The notes under the pieces are model-generated. The model was not told where the DNA came from, did no database searches, and worked only from the letters and a program-made list of their open reading frames with translations. DNA of 37,031 nucleotides from [Mycobacterium] vasticus (GTDB lineage Bacteria > Actinomycetota > Actinomycetes > Mycobacteriales > Mycobacteriaceae). Made by a program: the position numbers and the translations under genes. The first letter of the stretch is position 1. Every line of letters starts with the position of its first letter. Positions 1,861 to 7,638 of this stretch are shown piece by piece. Location: positions 3,711,291 through 3,748,321 of the forward strand of contig NZ_CP084028.1 in NCBI RefSeq assembly GCF_020181595.1. The letters are read 5' to 3'.

Positions 1861-1918
1861 GAACTGCCCACCAGCGGACACGAAAGTGCTCGCTGGCGGT
1901 CATGAATCTGCCCAGACC
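1803..1918. repeat. Left-end multiple terminal repeats of the IS21-family element
   Basis: Five imperfect tandem copies of a unit close to GGCGGACATGAAAACTGCCC occur at about 1803-1826, 1827-1848, 1849-1872, 1873-1894 and 1895-1918. Copies 1 and 2 are the best conserved. Such arrays are binding sites for IstA in this family. About 95 bp separate the array from the istA start. Confidence 0.75.
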
Positions 1919-2014
1919 TGTTTGGTGCCGCGCGGCGCGTCAGCGCCGTGGCGGCCTCTCCTGCGGTTTCGATGTCGATGCCTAGTCGAAACGAAACCCG
2001 CAGGAGAGACCTAC

Positions 2015-3529
2015 GTGAAGTCTGACGGAGAACTCATGGAAATACTCAATGCCTACGACCTGACCGGGTCCTACCGGGCGGCCGCCGAGCTGTGCGGGTG
2101 CTCGCACCACACCGTCAAGAAGGCCGTCGCCGACCGTAACGCCGGTCTGCCGCCGGCGACGCGGCGGGCCCGGATGATCGATGATTGGCGCGATGTCTTG
2201 GAGGGCTGGGTCGCTGATTCGAAGGGCAAGATCCGCGGCGACAAGGCCCACGACAAACTCGTTGCGTTGGGCTATGCCGGCACCGACCGCACCACCCGGC
2301 GTGCGGTGGCCGAGATCAAAGCCCAATGGCGACTGGGCAATACACGTGTGCACCGGCCGTGGATCACCGAGCCCGGCTTGTGGTTGCAGTACGACTTTGC
2401 CGACGGCCCTGTGGTGGCCGGCGGCAAGGTCGTGTTGCTGGTGGCCTGGCTTGCGTGGAGTCGCTACCGCGTGGTGATCGCACTGCGGGACCGCACTGCG
2501 CCCAGTGTGTTCGCCGGCCTGGATCGCATCTTCCGGATCGTTGGGGGCGCCCCGACCTATCTACTGACCGACAATGAGAAAACCGTCACCACCGGCCATA
2601 TCGCCGGGGTGCCGGTGCGCAACCGCGTCGCGGTCACCTTCGGTCGCTACTACGGCATCTCGGTGCTGACCTGCGAGCCGGCCGACCCGGCCTCCAAGGG
2701 CGGGGTGGAAAACGCCGTCAAGCTCGCCAAAGCCGACATCGTGCCCACCGAGACCAACCTGCTGCCCCACTACGACACCTTCGCCGACGTGGAGGCCGCG
2801 TGTGCGGGGTTCACCGCCGAAATCAACGCCCGCACCCACCGCACCACGGGCCGGCGGCCGGTCGAGATGCTCACCGCGGAACGACCGGCCCTGCACGCAA
2901 TTCCTGACCTGCCGCACACCGCTGCGTTGGGGGTGACCCGCCGGGTTCCCGACAACACCCCCATGGTCACCTTCGAACACTGCCAATACTCCGTGCCGGC
3001 AACATTATTGGGTCAGACCGTGTGGATCCGCCACCACGGCGGCACCGACGAAATCGTGATCTGCGCCCTCGATGACGGCGGCCCGGTCGAGGTCGCCAGA
3101 CACCGCCGCGCCACCCCGGGCAGTCCGGCCATCGACGATGCTCATTTCCCCGATCATCGCGACAAGGTGCCCGGCGACTACCGGGTGCGGGCCCGCACCG
3201 TCAGCGAGCAGACGTTTGTGGCACTCGGGCCAGGTGCGAGGGTGTGGCTCAAAGAAGCCGCCGCCGTCGGCACCGAACGGATCCTGCAGAAAATGGCTCA
3301 TGCGGTGCAACTGTCGGCTCTGGTCGGCCGCGCCGACGTCGACTGGGCGCTCGGGCATGCCGCCGTGCACGGCCGTTTCGCCACCGGCGACCTGGACTCT
3401 ATCCTGGCGGCCAAAGGCCTCGATGTCACCCGCCGCGGCGCCAACGAGGACACCTCCCTGGCCCAAGGCACCCAAGGATGGAACCTGTTCGGCGCCACCA
3501 TCATCACCACCGGTGAGGCGGGCATCTGA
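2015..3529 (+). CDS. istA: IS21-family transposase IstA
   Basis: A 504-residue DDE recombinase that cuts and joins the element ends. The start is GTG at 2015, preceded by CAGGAGAG at good spacing; the frame is open upstream to 1886 but lacks such a site there. An N-terminal helix-turn-helix (about residues 15-45, around GSYRAAAELCGCSHHTVKKA) precedes a retroviral-integrase-like core. Candidate catalytic acids are the Asp in LQYDFADGP, the Asp in LLTDNEK and the Glu in SKGGVENAVKLAK, in the expected order. A C-terminal beta-rich domain follows. The stop codon overlaps the istB start (TGATGA). It appears intact. Residues downstream of the core are typical of actinobacterial IstA proteins. Confidence 0.93.
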   Translation: MKSDGELMEILNAYDLTGSYRAAAELCGCSHHTVKKAVADRNAGLPPATRRARMIDDWRDVLEGWVADSKGKIRGDKAHDKLVALGYAGTDRTTRRAVAEIKAQWRLGNTRVHRPWITEPGLWLQYDFADGPVVAGGKVVLLVAWLAWSRYRVVIALRDRTAPSVFAGLDRIFRIVGGAPTYLLTDNEKTVTTGHIAGVPVRNRVAVTFGRYYGISVLTCEPADPASKGGVENAVKLAKADIVPTETNLLPHYDTFADVEAACAGFTAEINARTHRTTGRRPVEMLTAERPALHAIPDLPHTAALGVTRRVPDNTPMVTFEHCQYSVPATLLGQTVWIRHHGGTDEIVICALDDGGPVEVARHRRATPGSPAIDDAHFPDHRDKVPGDYRVRARTVSEQTFVALGPGARVWLKEAAAVGTERILQKMAHAVQLSALVGRADVDWALGHAAVHGRFATGDLDSILAAKGLDVTRRGANEDTSLAQGTQGWNLFGATIITTGEAGI

Positions 3530-4317
3530 TGAGCACCCACACGACCGCAAGCATGGCCACTGCCCAGTTGCCGGCCGAGGTGGAGTCGTTGATGAAGGCC
3601 CTGCGGTTGCCGCACGCCCGCGCGATCGCCGCCGACGTGCTGGCCACCGCCCGGGCCCAACGCTGGGACCCTACCGAAGTCATCAAAGCGTTGCTGAACG
3701 AAGAAGCCGCCGGACGAGCCCGCTCCATGCTGGCCTCACGCCGCAAAGCTGCGGGCTTCCCGACCGGCAAAACCTTTGACGCCTGGGACCCAGGCGCCTC
3801 CTCGATCCCGCTGCCCACCCAGCAGGCGTTGCAGACCCTGGAATGGGTCGAGCGTCGGGAGAATCTGGTGGTCTGCGGGCCGGCCGGCACCGGTAAGACA
3901 TTCTTCCTGGAGGCGTTGGGACAGAAAGTGATTGAGGCCGGGATGCCGGTAGCGTGGTTCACTCTCGAACAGATCGGCGTGCTGGTGCGGGCTCACCGTG
4001 CCGACGACTCACTGGGCAAGGCGGTCGCCAAGATTGTGCGCGCTGAACTCGTCGTCATTGATGACGTAGGCCTGTTGCCGGTCGGTGCTGATGCCGCTGA
4101 AGGGCTCTACCGCATTGTCGAAGCCGCCTACGAACGGAAATCGGTCGCGATCTCCTCGAACCTGCACCCGAGCGGATTCGATGAGCTGATGCCCAAAACG
4201 CTGGCCACCGCGACCGTCGACCGGCTGCTGCACCACGCCCACCTGTGCCAAACCAGCGGCGACTCCGTGCGCCTGGCCCAGGCCCTACACGGGAAAGGGG
4301 TCAAGCCCTTGAGCTGA
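3529..4317 (+). CDS. istB: IS21-family helper ATPase IstB
   Basis: A 262-residue DnaC/IstB-type AAA+ ATPase that assists IstA in target selection and strand transfer. The N-terminal helical domain contains EEAAGRARSMLASRRKAAGFP, typical of IstB. A Walker A motif (GPAGTGKT) lies near residue 120 and a Walker B-like LVVIDDVGLL near residue 175. A sensor-like ISSNL segment follows. The ATG overlaps the istA stop. Its length matches the family, and no frameshift is visible, so the element may be able to transpose. Confidence 0.93.
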   Translation: MSTHTTASMATAQLPAEVESLMKALRLPHARAIAADVLATARAQRWDPTEVIKALLNEEAAGRARSMLASRRKAAGFPTGKTFDAWDPGASSIPLPTQQALQTLEWVERRENLVVCGPAGTGKTFFLEALGQKVIEAGMPVAWFTLEQIGVLVRAHRADDSLGKAVAKIVRAELVVIDDVGLLPVGADAAEGLYRIVEAAYERKSVAISSNLHPSGFDELMPKTLATATVDRLLHHAHLCQTSGDSVRLAQALHGKGVKPLS

Positions 4318-4673: not shown

Positions 4674-6638
4674 TTACCGCACTACCAGTGGGTCATCTTC
4701 CATGCAGTCGCTGCCAACAGCACCGGCCGCCGCCCCTGAGGCAGGCCAGGAGCGCTCCACACGTTGAGCAGCGCCAACAAGCGCACGGAGCACTTCCCGC
4801 GTCTCGCGATCAGTGGAATAGATAACCGTGCCGATCATCCCGCGCGTCAGGAGAACCTTGTACACGTGGCGCACGAGGACATCGAACCGGTTGTCGGGCA
4901 CAGTCTTCGAGTTTCGGAAATCGGGGTCCCTGTTCGCACTGCGGACTGTCACGAACCGCCCTTCCCGCCACACGATATCGGGCCCAAGTACCACGCCGCT
5001 CCAGTCGTATTCGAAGCCCTGGGCGGTGTAGATGCAACCCACCTGACCGAATCCACCCTCGTCGGTGGCCCATAACGCACTGGGAGGCGCCTCTCCGATC
5101 CGCCTGTCACTCTTGCTGTTCCACGGCCGCGACCAGGTTCCGATCTGAACGTCCGGCACCAGTGTCCCGTCTTTTCGAGCATCACTCCACGGCCAGCAAT
5201 ACCCGGCCGACATACGCGCGGAGTATCCCCTCTGTGTTTGCCCCAGCAGATAGTGCTCCATCTCCTCTGGAGTCTCTGCGAGTCGGACCTGGAACTGGGG
5301 GTCACCCGACCACACCGCCGGCGGATGATCGTCGTCGAGCCCAAGCAGCCGGACTACCCAGCGCACGTATTCCTCGCTCCCGCCGCACCGGAACTGCTCA
5401 CCGAGCCCAACATGCTGAAAATCGAGCCCAAGGTGCTGCGCGTGGTGCTCGATCTGCTTGAGGGTTCCCATTTCACCCGGACGCACCACTTGGTGTTCGT
5501 CGAGCAGAAAGACCGGTACCCGGGCGGCGGCGATGAGTTCGTCGATCTGCGGGCGATCGGTACGCAACTCCGCGCGGGTGTACCTGCCGGCGGACGTTTT
5601 CCGGATCCGATGGGCCTCGTCCATAACCAGGACGTCCAGGCCGTTGGGGTCAGCCGCCATGAACTGGTTGAAGTACTTGAACAGGCCCCTGACCTTAGGC
5701 GCCCTGACGGCGGCGACCTTCCGGAGTGTCTGGGTGAAAGAGCGCGAGCCGGTCGCATGGATGACGGTGCGGCCCCGTCGCGCCAGTTCGCCGACAAGAG
5801 AAAGCGCGATGACGCTCTTACCGCTGCCCGGCCCACCGGTCACCGCGATCACCCGCTTGCTGTTTCCAGCTCGCGCGTGCTCAACGGCGTGCATAACCAA
5901 ATCAACTGCCAACTGCTGGTTTCCGATCAACCGGAACTGCGGCCGGTCGCGGATCTCCGCGGCGGCAAGCTTCAGCAGCTGTTTGGACGGGGCCACCGGA
6001 GAGTTCATCAACAGATCGGCCGCCTCACGCCCGGGCCCTGGGGCAAGCCGGGACCGGAGGAAGTCGAACATGGCTCCCTTATCTCCGGCGGTGAAGAACC
6101 GGCCCGAGGTAGAAATCGGCACGGCCAGCAGATCCTTGACCAAAGCGGGATCGGAGGCGTTGTGTAGGTATGCCATTCCCGCCACCGAATCGGGATGCTC
6201 CGCCACCACCCGCGTGAAATCCAAGAGGTACTCGCAATAGCCGCGCACCTGGACCACGGGGTGCAATCGCGGTCCCCCTGGAACCCCCGGTACTTCGACG
6301 ATCTCCGGATCGCCTTCAAAAGTGTAAGCCGCCGACCACTGCTTGAGCTCAACCACGACGTAAGACACTCCGCCGGTCCGGGGGTGGGTGCCGGCAAGGA
6401 CGACATCAGCTCGTTGAGAGGTCAGCGGAAGGTGATACTCGACCAGCATCTCGACCTCGCCGAGGCCGGCCTCGGCAAGGTCGGCAGCCAAGATCGGAAG
6501 GCTCCGCTTCCACGAGGCCTGCTCAGCGGGTGCAGCGCGGCGACCGGTCCGATACAGCATCTGCTCCAGCAACTGTTCGACCAATGACTCGGGCGCCATC
6601 TCACGAACACGATCTGCGGTCGTGCGAATCAGCGTCAC
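4674..6638 (-). CDS. RecB-type nuclease fused to DUF2075 P-loop ATPase/helicase-like protein
   Basis: A 654-residue protein. The preferred start is GTG at 6638 (VTLIRTTADRVRE); the frame is open to 6686, but that extension crosses an 18-bp palindrome and looks non-native. Residues about 60-130 show a RecB-type PD-(D/E)XK nuclease pattern: E67, D78 in QRADVVLAG, E97-L-K99 in VVVELKQW, and a QxxxY motif (Q120, Y124). After a linker comes the DUF2075 NTPase, with Walker A GGPGSGKS (248-255) and DEAH (320-323). Helicase-like C-terminal motifs follow: a GEQFRC segment and IYTAQGFEYDW (near residue 560). This implies ATP-driven DNA or RNA cleavage in the cytoplasm. The architecture recalls single-protein nuclease-helicase immunity (Nhi-type) systems, and IS elements lie alongside. 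Family and motifs are fairly sure; a defence role is inference. Confidence 0.8.
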   Translation of the reverse strand: MTLIRTTADRVREMAPESLVEQLLEQMLYRTGRRAAPAEQASWKRSLPILAADLAEAGLGEVEMLVEYHLPLTSQRADVVLAGTHPRTGGVSYVVVELKQWSAAYTFEGDPEIVEVPGVPGGPRLHPVVQVRGYCEYLLDFTRVVAEHPDSVAGMAYLHNASDPALVKDLLAVPISTSGRFFTAGDKGAMFDFLRSRLAPGPGREAADLLMNSPVAPSKQLLKLAAAEIRDRPQFRLIGNQQLAVDLVMHAVEHARAGNSKRVIAVTGGPGSGKSVIALSLVGELARRGRTVIHATGSRSFTQTLRKVAAVRAPKVRGLFKYFNQFMAADPNGLDVLVMDEAHRIRKTSAGRYTRAELRTDRPQIDELIAAARVPVFLLDEHQVVRPGEMGTLKQIEHHAQHLGLDFQHVGLGEQFRCGGSEEYVRWVVRLLGLDDDHPPAVWSGDPQFQVRLAETPEEMEHYLLGQTQRGYSARMSAGYCWPWSDARKDGTLVPDVQIGTWSRPWNSKSDRRIGEAPPSALWATDEGGFGQVGCIYTAQGFEYDWSGVVLGPDIVWREGRFVTVRSANRDPDFRNSKTVPDNRFDVLVRHVYKVLLTRGMIGTVIYSTDRETREVLRALVGAAQRVERSWPASGAAAGAVGSDCMEDDPLVVR

Positions 6639-6656
6639 GTCGGGGTCCCCAGGGCA

Positions 6657-6690
6657 GCACGAATACATTCGTGCGGGTGGGGACATGTCC
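6657..6690. promoter_or_regulatory. Two palindromes upstream of the nuclease-ATPase gene
   Basis: GCACGAAT-AC-ATTCGTGC (6657-6674) is a perfect palindrome with 8-bp arms. GGACATGTCC (6681-6690) is a second perfect palindrome 6 nt further upstream. The first begins 19 nt before the GTG at 6638, the expected place for a repressor site or a transcript hairpin. It is not a mycobacterial LexA box: the distance between the GAA and TTC halves is 4, not 6. No promoter hexamers were identified with confidence. The remaining 150 bp to the next gene show no coding sequence. Confidence 0.45.
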
Positions 6691-6843
6691 GTGCCGGCTG
6701 GATAAGGCCGGGGAAGTCCGTCGGGCCGCAGAGGTCATGCTAGGGCAGTGCGGCTATTGACCGGCCGCAACCCGCGAGGACTGCCCGTCCTCCATCCGCC
6801 GCGCCAGCGCGGTTTCGGCTGCCAAACGCGCAATACTGAGCCA

Positions 6844-7638
6844 ATGCCTGTCGCCCGCCGAGCGCTCCTCGCGGTCCTGGCCGCCGCCCTGGCCCTGACG
6901 TCCCCTGTTTCGCCGGCCTCGCCCGCCTCCGCCGAGCCGCTGCAGGCCTCGTTCGCGCAGCTGGCAGGCACCATTCCCGCCACCATCGGCATCGCCTACG
7001 CCCCGGTCGGACAGAATGCGGCAGGCACGCTGGGCACCCTGCAGAACGGCGTCGCCTGGTCGACCATCAAGGTGCCGTTGTCCATCGCCGCGATCCACGC
7101 CAACGTCCCCAGCGCCCAGGATCTGGCCGCCAAGGCCGTCACCGCCTCCGACAACGATGCCGCCGAGAAGCTGTGGTCCGAGCTCGGGCCGGCTCCGCAG
7201 GCCGCCCAGCAGGTGCAGGCCGTGCTGCGGGCCGGTGGCGACAGCGGCACCGCGGTCGAATCCCGGCGGCTGCGGCCGGAGTTCAGCGCGTTCGGCCAGA
7301 CCCAGTGGCCACTGGCCCGCCAGGCCGTGTTCGCGGCGCACCTGCCGTGTCTGGGCGTGGCCGCACCCGTCTACCGCCTGATGAACAACACCGTTACGGA
7401 TCAACGCTGGGGCCTGGCCAGCCTTGGTGTCCCCACCAAGGGCGGCTGGGGCCCCGGACCGAGCGGCGGGTATCTGGTGCGGCAGTTCGGCGTCGTCCGC
7501 GGTCCCCAGGGCGACGTCGGGGTCGCGCTGGCCGCCGAACCGAATAACGGCAGCTTCGACGCCGGGGTGGCTGCGCTGAATCAGATGACCCAATGGCTGT
7601 CCGCCAATGCCGCCGCCCTACCGGGTGGCCACTGCTAG
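6844..7638 (+). CDS. Secreted class A beta-lactamase-fold serine hydrolase-like protein
   Basis: A 264-residue exported protein. The ATG at 6844 is followed by a classical signal peptide (MPVARR, a hydrophobic stretch, then Ala-rich SPASPASA before EPLQ at about residue 30). The mature part keeps three active-site signatures of the penicillin-recognising fold in order: S73-T-I-K76 (SxxK), S102-D-N104 (SDN) and K199-G-G (in place of KTG). No Glu166-type omega loop was recognised, so antibiotic hydrolysis is doubtful; a cell-wall or esterase-like role is possible. C169 and C264 could form a disulfide. No sterol link is seen. It is rightward and separate from gabD2 by 50 bp. Confidence 0.7.
   Translation: MPVARRALLAVLAAALALTSPVSPASPASAEPLQASFAQLAGTIPATIGIAYAPVGQNAAGTLGTLQNGVAWSTIKVPLSIAAIHANVPSAQDLAAKAVTASDNDAAEKLWSELGPAPQAAQQVQAVLRAGGDSGTAVESRRLRPEFSAFGQTQWPLARQAVFAAHLPCLGVAAPVYRLMNNTVTDQRWGLASLGVPTKGGWGPGPSGGYLVRQFGVVRGPQGDVGVALAAEPNNGSFDAGVAALNQMTQWLSANAAALPGGHC

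Follow-up and report, generated by a model that had tools for sequence, protein, structure and literature searches.

Nhi unites a nuclease and an SF1 helicase in one protein, an idea it has in common with the protein described here. The nucleases Hachiman HamA, Shedu SduA, Can2/Card1 and McrBC work with other partners or signals, and metabolite riboswitches usually serve wider regulons. With Pfam family PF09848 (SLFN-g3_helicase, formerly DUF2075) the protein shares a full-length domain match and the SLFN11/SLFN14 helicase fold, and it differs in its N-terminal domain, which is predicted to be PD-(D/E)XK nuclease-like; the open-licence papers that use the word DUF2075 are, by their titles and the starts of their abstracts, not about its function. 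A partner gene beside some relatives has HNH_2 in common with the EVE-HNH modification-dependent endonucleases (VcaM4I, PMC7897488; survey PMC7641849), gives matches to EVE in some of its members, and differs in its leader core and its adjoining SLFN-g3 gene, neither of which is mentioned in the available portions of those two papers. Here, we describe a gene of [Mycobacterium] vasticus for a predicted nuclease-helicase, analysed in a 37,031-nt stretch of contig NZ_CP084028.1 (the window), and the leader RNA that precedes it. The leader is the most unusual part of the locus and lies outside the claims of an earlier note on this DNA. Like the riboswitches and other cis-regulatory RNAs of Rfam 15, it is an mRNA leader with a conserved 5' core and a 3' half that could bury the Shine-Dalgarno (SD) sequence; unlike them, it matches no family, and the associated genes encode nucleases.

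Gene and protein

The gene and its surroundings contain the following features:

4674-6638, minus strand: coding sequence, 654 aa, PD-(D/E)XK nuclease plus SLFN-group-3 (DUF2075) helicase, with a GTG start at 6638-6636
5994-6638, minus strand: N-terminal PD-(D/E)XK nuclease domain, residues ~1-215, with D78, E97, K99, Q130 and Y134
4758-5951, minus strand: SLFN-g3 SF1 helicase domain, residues ~230-627, with Walker A 268-275 and DEAH 340-343
1886-4317, plus strand: IS21-family istA/istB pair (HMM matches), context and not part of the system

The 654-residue protein that the earlier note placed at 4674-6638 is real and is encoded on the minus strand; the plus strand of this interval is interrupted by stops. 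Mechanical start calling gives an ATG at 6686, 48 nt upstream of GTG 6638. The GTG is the better start, because the ATG lies inside a stretch that relatives share in other frames and because the GTG is preceded by an SD-like GGGGA, which ends 7 nt upstream of it. IS elements adjoin the gene, as the note had it, in the form of the IS21-family pair.

The protein belongs to the SLFN-g3 helicases by its match to PF09848 over model positions 1-354 of 354 (279.3 bits against a Pfam gathering cut-off of 24), with Walker A and DEAH motifs, and its helicase part has a UvrD/RecD/SLFN-like core. A search of the genome at E≤0.001 gave no second PF09848 match besides this gene. In an alignment of 67 sequences (the window protein and 66 relatives, 56-86% identical), D78, E97, K99, Q130 and Y134 are invariant, and Walker A and DEAH are mostly so, with S272 and A342 at least 90% conserved. 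The D, ExK and helix QxxxY motifs lie on the core fold of a predicted PD-(D/E)XK nuclease, and the predicted model gives moderate matches to PD-(D/E)XK folds, EndoMS/NucS among them, as the earlier note expected of the N-terminal domain. Pfam lists no match to the N-terminal Schlafen endoRNase core domain that marks mammalian-type Schlafen proteins, and PD-(D/E)XK heads the fold list, whose absences exclude nothing. The joining of a nuclease to a helicase in one protein, proposed in the note, has the backing of invariant motifs, of HMMs and of two predicted structures. Its D78 and E97-x-K99 positions were right; the other motifs are present under shifted numbers, with Q120xxxY124 at Q130/Y134, Walker A 248-255 at 268-275 (K254 being likewise misnumbered) and DEAH 320-323 at 340-343.

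The protein is not Nhi, since the PADLOC Nhi model matches at positions 198-311 of 470 (30 bits), covering ~140 helicase residues rather than the full length. The PADLOC check that the note had named yielded partial matches throughout, PDC-S41 reaching 55 bits with its best stretch only at 557-622 of 657. No relative of the protein turned up among the sequences of the PDB, and there is no sequence match to the solved structures of HamA, SduA, Can2/Card1 or McrBC.

Leader RNA

The region upstream of the gene contains the following features:

6636-6742, minus strand: conserved leader RNA, defined by nucleotide conservation upstream of homologues
6737-6742, minus strand: -10-like hexamer TAGCAT (TANNNT lies ≤24 nt before GCGG in 79/79 leaders)
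6673-6729, minus strand: leader 5' core (state A), GCGG 6726-6729 with CCGC 6673-6676, GGAC 6716-6719 with GTCC 6681-6684, and P2 hairpin 6688-6714
6646-6684, minus strand: possible SD-sequestering hairpin (state B), with arm GTCCCCACCC 6675-6684, P3 GCACGAA/TTCGTGC 6657-6674 and SD arm TGGGGA 6646-6651

The stretch upstream of the homologues is conserved at the nucleotide level, not as protein. Of 80 homologue loci in named genomes, 78 have it ahead of the gene, and two Nocardiopsis loci (L044 and L079) are without it. Its consensus is GCGGCCCGACGGRCUUCC - variable hairpin - GGAYAYGYCCCCACCCGCACGA - loop - UUCGUGCUGCC(Y)GGGG(G/A) - 5-11 nt - start codon. The -10-like TANNNT box before GCGG, present in every leader against a mean of 14.6 in mononucleotide shuffles, suggests that transcripts probably begin at or near GCGG. 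A pattern search covering 5-12 nt after the SD run found a start-like codon in 74 of 79 leaders, the first at 6-8 nt in 68. A beta-lactamase-like ORF (PF13354; window 6748-7638, plus strand) begins within a few bases of the -10-like box and runs divergently; since the mechanical GTG would overlap the leader promoter region, the true start may be further in. Rfam 15 gave no family above the gathering threshold in the window or eight related loci, the sub-threshold matches being microRNA and snoRNA models (E>4). In searches of the open-licence literature no description of a leader preceding DUF2075/SLFN-g3 genes came up, and the available portions of the EVE survey (PMC7641849) and a BREX survey (PMC12839542) make no mention of it.

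RNAalifold on a plain MAFFT alignment yields GCGG:CCGC (H1), GGRC:GYCC (H2) and UCC:GGA (the base of P2), that is, state A only. In plain MAFFT alignment A4 (69 sequences selected to be diverse, 9 of which precede EVE-like genes), 93.2% of cells pair, compared with 27.8-53.0% when the partner is slid. Double-change cells number 34, whereas sliding gives 13 at the most and shuffling 8.3 ± 2.4 (0/500), although the leaders are related, so that the shuffle tests overstate significance and these cells are not independent events. H1 changes from G-C to A-U, U-A or U-G in 5 cells, and two pairs of H2 become A-U (14 and 12 cells). Against this, pairing is lost at the outermost H1 position in 9/65 cells, and an A.C mismatch is kept in H2 of 10/79 leaders, mostly from Rhodococcus. 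Alignment A3 (115 copies, fitted to the model and so leaning towards the structure) has double changes in 11/15 pairs. P2 differs among leaders in the length and sequence of its stem and keeps its pairing in most of them. Folded alone, the 5' half pairs GCGG with the arm at a probability of 0.81 across 79 leaders, and in 20 of the 79 GCGG:CCGC pairing stands at 0.82, compared with 0.32 after shuffling of the middle part, 19/20 exceeding their control. The leader thus has the conserved structured core with covariation that is asked of a riboswitch, and state A is well supported as a prediction.

UUCGUGC..GGGG, the stretch that contains the SD, offers the 3' strand of H1/H2 (GYCCCCACCCGCACGA) a second complement. 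The window leader folds as state B at -40.6 kcal/mol (z -2.5), with 4/200 shuffles equally good. The SD run is paired at a mean probability of 0.93 across 79 leaders; this says little, since in 20 of them it stays paired at 0.82 (vs 0.92) with the upstream part shuffled. In the 30/100 leaders whose arms are of a minority type, a partner-swap test of state B gave no significant excess (own 5.72, swapped 5.52, maximum 5.95), and the P3 stem has 5 double-change cells in A3. State B is therefore likely by complementarity rather than by significant covariation, and the leader is likely to be a bistable translational switch.

Leader copies and the EVE-like/HNH partner

Leader models R1 and R2 were used to find further copies. 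Of the 92 matches that R2 gave over 81 sources (weakest E 3.3e-5), 79 precede SLFN-g3 genes, 7 precede EVE-like/HNH genes and 6 are second copies; five of these six were read (all but L066), and those five lie before SLFN-g3 paralogues. Tandem paralogues, 38-39% identical, each have their own leader in five loci (L136, L138-L141). R1 at E≤0.01 matched in 46 of 394 genomes of the class; four were rejected, and the remaining 42 (E≤2.4e-4) all have the protein. The rejected matches, in G212, G172, G201 and G242 (E 0.005-0.008), lie inside open coding frames in three cases and, in G201, have no fitting gene behind them. Closer searching added leaders in G489, G496 and G160 (two copies, one weak), all protein-positive. 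A weak R2 match away from SLFN-g3 genes (G348, E 0.049) looks like chance.

No leader was found in 14 of 59 protein-positive class genomes, including those with the 56% identical homologues G327, G474 and G513; among the 14, G405 and G433 lie on truncated contigs, and these two with G288 and G306 were searched with stricter whole-genome filters only. By locus, the leader is missing before some homologues of 50-56% identity (L119, L120, L122, L125, L234) and 28-44% identity (L121, L126-L131, L133, L235-L238, L241), before two further homologues in L132, and in three plasmid relatives outside actinobacteria (Hymenobacter, Methanosphaera, Priestia).

Altered copies occur at three loci. In L148 (6893-6979, plus strand) a leader copy with an intact 5' core and a decayed 3' half has no homologue behind it and is probably the remnant of a lost tandem paralogue; in L134 (4362-5065, plus strand) the leader is kept before a homologue with a large internal deletion (residues ~100-520 missing); and in L220 (1691-1735, plus strand) a divergent core copy points away from an SLFN-g3 gene that is truncated, and is followed by no intact EVE-like frame.

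The 5' core is associated with two gene types: Rhodococcus, Gordonia, Williamsia and L135 also have a copy, joined to a different 3' half, ahead of an EVE-like/HNH gene, and Rhodococcus erythropolis (L009) has leaders of both types. The partner protein has the HNH nuclease domain HNH_2 in 8/8 members and EVE (PF01878) in 4/8 at E≤1 (best 3.7e-4). At L219 the gene is divergent from the SLFN-g3 gene, and at L118 the EVE-like protein has no Pfam match and a different C-terminus. A profile made from 8 of these proteins recognised ten EVE-like neighbours of SLFN-g3 genes in the loci scanned, and the core is present at 10/10. That count is no independent test, as the 8 profile members are among the ten and had been picked for their leader; 5 neighbours matching only the HNH part of the profile have no core. 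The 5' half of the EVE-like gene leaders alone folds into the H2/P2 core in 9/10, and in full-length folds of L009, L012, L016 and L219 the arm is predicted to pair with GGCAUG-type strands near the SD and start. The partner was not seen among the ten window ORFs scanned with HMMs.

Distribution and neighbouring genes

The gene is present in 2 of 148 sampled genomes of the genus, its own and G117 (92%), two more matches at E~1e-4 being short ATPase matches. The closest named proteins include those of Mycolicibacter terrae (86-87%) and Mycolicibacterium chitae (87%), and 59 of 394 sampled class genomes have protein matches at E≤1e-40. Relatives range over actinobacteria, and more distantly other bacteria and archaea, so the enzyme, which the earlier note called mycobacterial, is not specifically so. 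In five close relatives (L002-L005, L137) the available flanks, short ones for L004 and L005, contain none of nine other window genes tested; a one-neighbour synteny search returned short loci of little use. An accessory, patchy gene without common flanks would fit a mobile defence gene. Phage-labelled contigs (IMG/VR; MT836681) hold the gene with its leader, in L178 (2486-2588, minus strand) and L240 (4958-5005, plus strand); exact-pattern scans of viral contigs gave 34 loci with one real leader (L178) at E≤0.1.

A crude GC3 ORF caller yielded 170 near and 162 far ORFs from 45 loci, of which 127 near (40 loci) and 127 far were scanned, the near ORFs of L006 and L016 being hand-corrected to the EVE-HNH frame. 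Among the matches listed, HNH_2 occurs in 10/127 near neighbours, six of them EVE-like/HNH partners (two with hand-corrected frames), and the type IV restriction model in 3 and BrxC in 2. Far-flank control proteins match defence models too (PglW, PglZ), and the PADLOC families listed (25 of 119 near, 25 of 75 far) are not comparable protein by protein; the near-flank surplus of defence-type neighbours is modest and comes from counts rather than a statistical comparison with the far flanks. Relatives lie near restriction-modification or CRISPR genes in 3/8 plasmid or phage records examined: the Priestia record has an N-6 methylase and specificity subunit, the Hymenobacter record a DNA methyltransferase and the S. 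albidoflavus record cas3. MazG-like (PF12643) proteins make up 5/127 near neighbours (A7 neighbour set), and a nucleotide pyrophosphohydrolase stands immediately before the Priestia plasmid relative (L238 4522-4851).

The stand-alone defence role proposed in the earlier note is plausible from the patchiness, the lack of conserved synteny in five close relatives, the EVE-like/HNH partner and the restriction/BREX-type neighbours in some loci, and is tempered by the defence matches of the far-flank control.

Discussion

On balance, we lean towards a mobile antiviral nuclease-helicase that is silenced at translation by an undescribed RNA switch common to its EVE-HNH partner. The gene would be self-contained, moving horizontally with its own promoter, and the nuclease-helicase would most likely attack invading DNA. 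Its mRNA would begin at or near GCGG, so that the bistable leader comes first. The 5' core (GCGG:CCGC, GGRC:GYCC and P2), being transcribed first, would hold the switching arm GYCCCCACCCGC; while the core stays folded, the run GGGG(G/A) would be free and protein made. Were the core unfolded, the arm would pair with the UUCGUGC...GGGG strand, burying the SD and turning translation off, the state that predicted folding energies favour. The core with a different 3' half precedes neighbouring EVE-like/HNH genes in several relatives, and therefore one trans-acting signal probably acts on both nucleases, unrelated as they are. For the regulator, the leading idea is autogenous control through the SLFN-g3 protein itself, because leaders turned up beside SLFN-g3 genes and nowhere else; the main alternative is a ligand, either a small molecule or an RNA. 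Most simply, a gene moving with its own promoter and leader, plus, in some lineages, a modification-dependent-type nuclease under the same core, would be a defence module whose nucleases are held silent.

Other explanations were weighed against the same observations. In a riboswitch proper, the 5' core would be an aptamer for a small molecule or RNA raised by infection (a nucleotide signal, modified nucleotide, tRNA or tRNA fragment) that turns on both nucleases. The core comes with two kinds of 3' half and precedes two gene families that are unrelated, which speaks for this, but the accepted matches in 394 class genomes adjoin SLFN-g3 genes and regulons of metabolite riboswitches are usually wider, and we regard it as possible though doubtful. 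It is rather unlikely that the protein is a housekeeping DNA/RNA repair enzyme without an antiviral role, its leader a stress-linked control: its patchy presence, moving location, tandem paralogues, EVE-like/HNH partner and, in some loci, restriction or BREX neighbours count against this, even if the UvrD/RecD/SLFN-like helicase core and the EndoMS/NucS fold matches suit it.

Two further explanations concern the conserved stretch itself. Its high conservation near the -10-like box might mark a DNA operator or extended promoter element instead of RNA structure; this is improbable, given that the stretch lies downstream of the box, that compensatory changes link segments some 25-50 nt apart, and that P2 pairs in most leaders despite its variation. 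Attenuation through a translated leader peptide or upstream ORF draws on an ATG within GGACATGCCCC in 57/79 leaders, but is most improbable: the remaining leaders have ACG (19), AAG (1), AGG (1) or another codon (1) there, no frame can run through all leaders because their hairpin loops differ in length (2-8 nt), and the frame into the coding sequence differs among relatives.

Returning to the RNA switch, a tentative and more specific reading casts the leader as an undescribed riboswitch-like RNA of actinobacteria that responds to a signal linked to infection, which might be a nucleotide, a fragment of tRNA or the SLFN-g3 protein when it engages nucleic acid of an invader. The RNA would then turn on, at translation, an antiviral module of two nucleases, the PD-(D/E)XK/Schlafen-type helicase together with an EVE-HNH modification-dependent endonuclease. 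If true, this would place immunity under the control of a bistable RNA leader. Potent nucleases need to be silent until required, and how bacteria manage this is a weak spot in the picture of immunity. An RNA switch that travels with a nuclease-helicase and recurs before a second nuclease would exemplify defence control at the RNA level. The leader would also be a handle on the poorly characterised bacterial Schlafen-group-3 proteins, as what triggers the switch would tell what the protein responds to.
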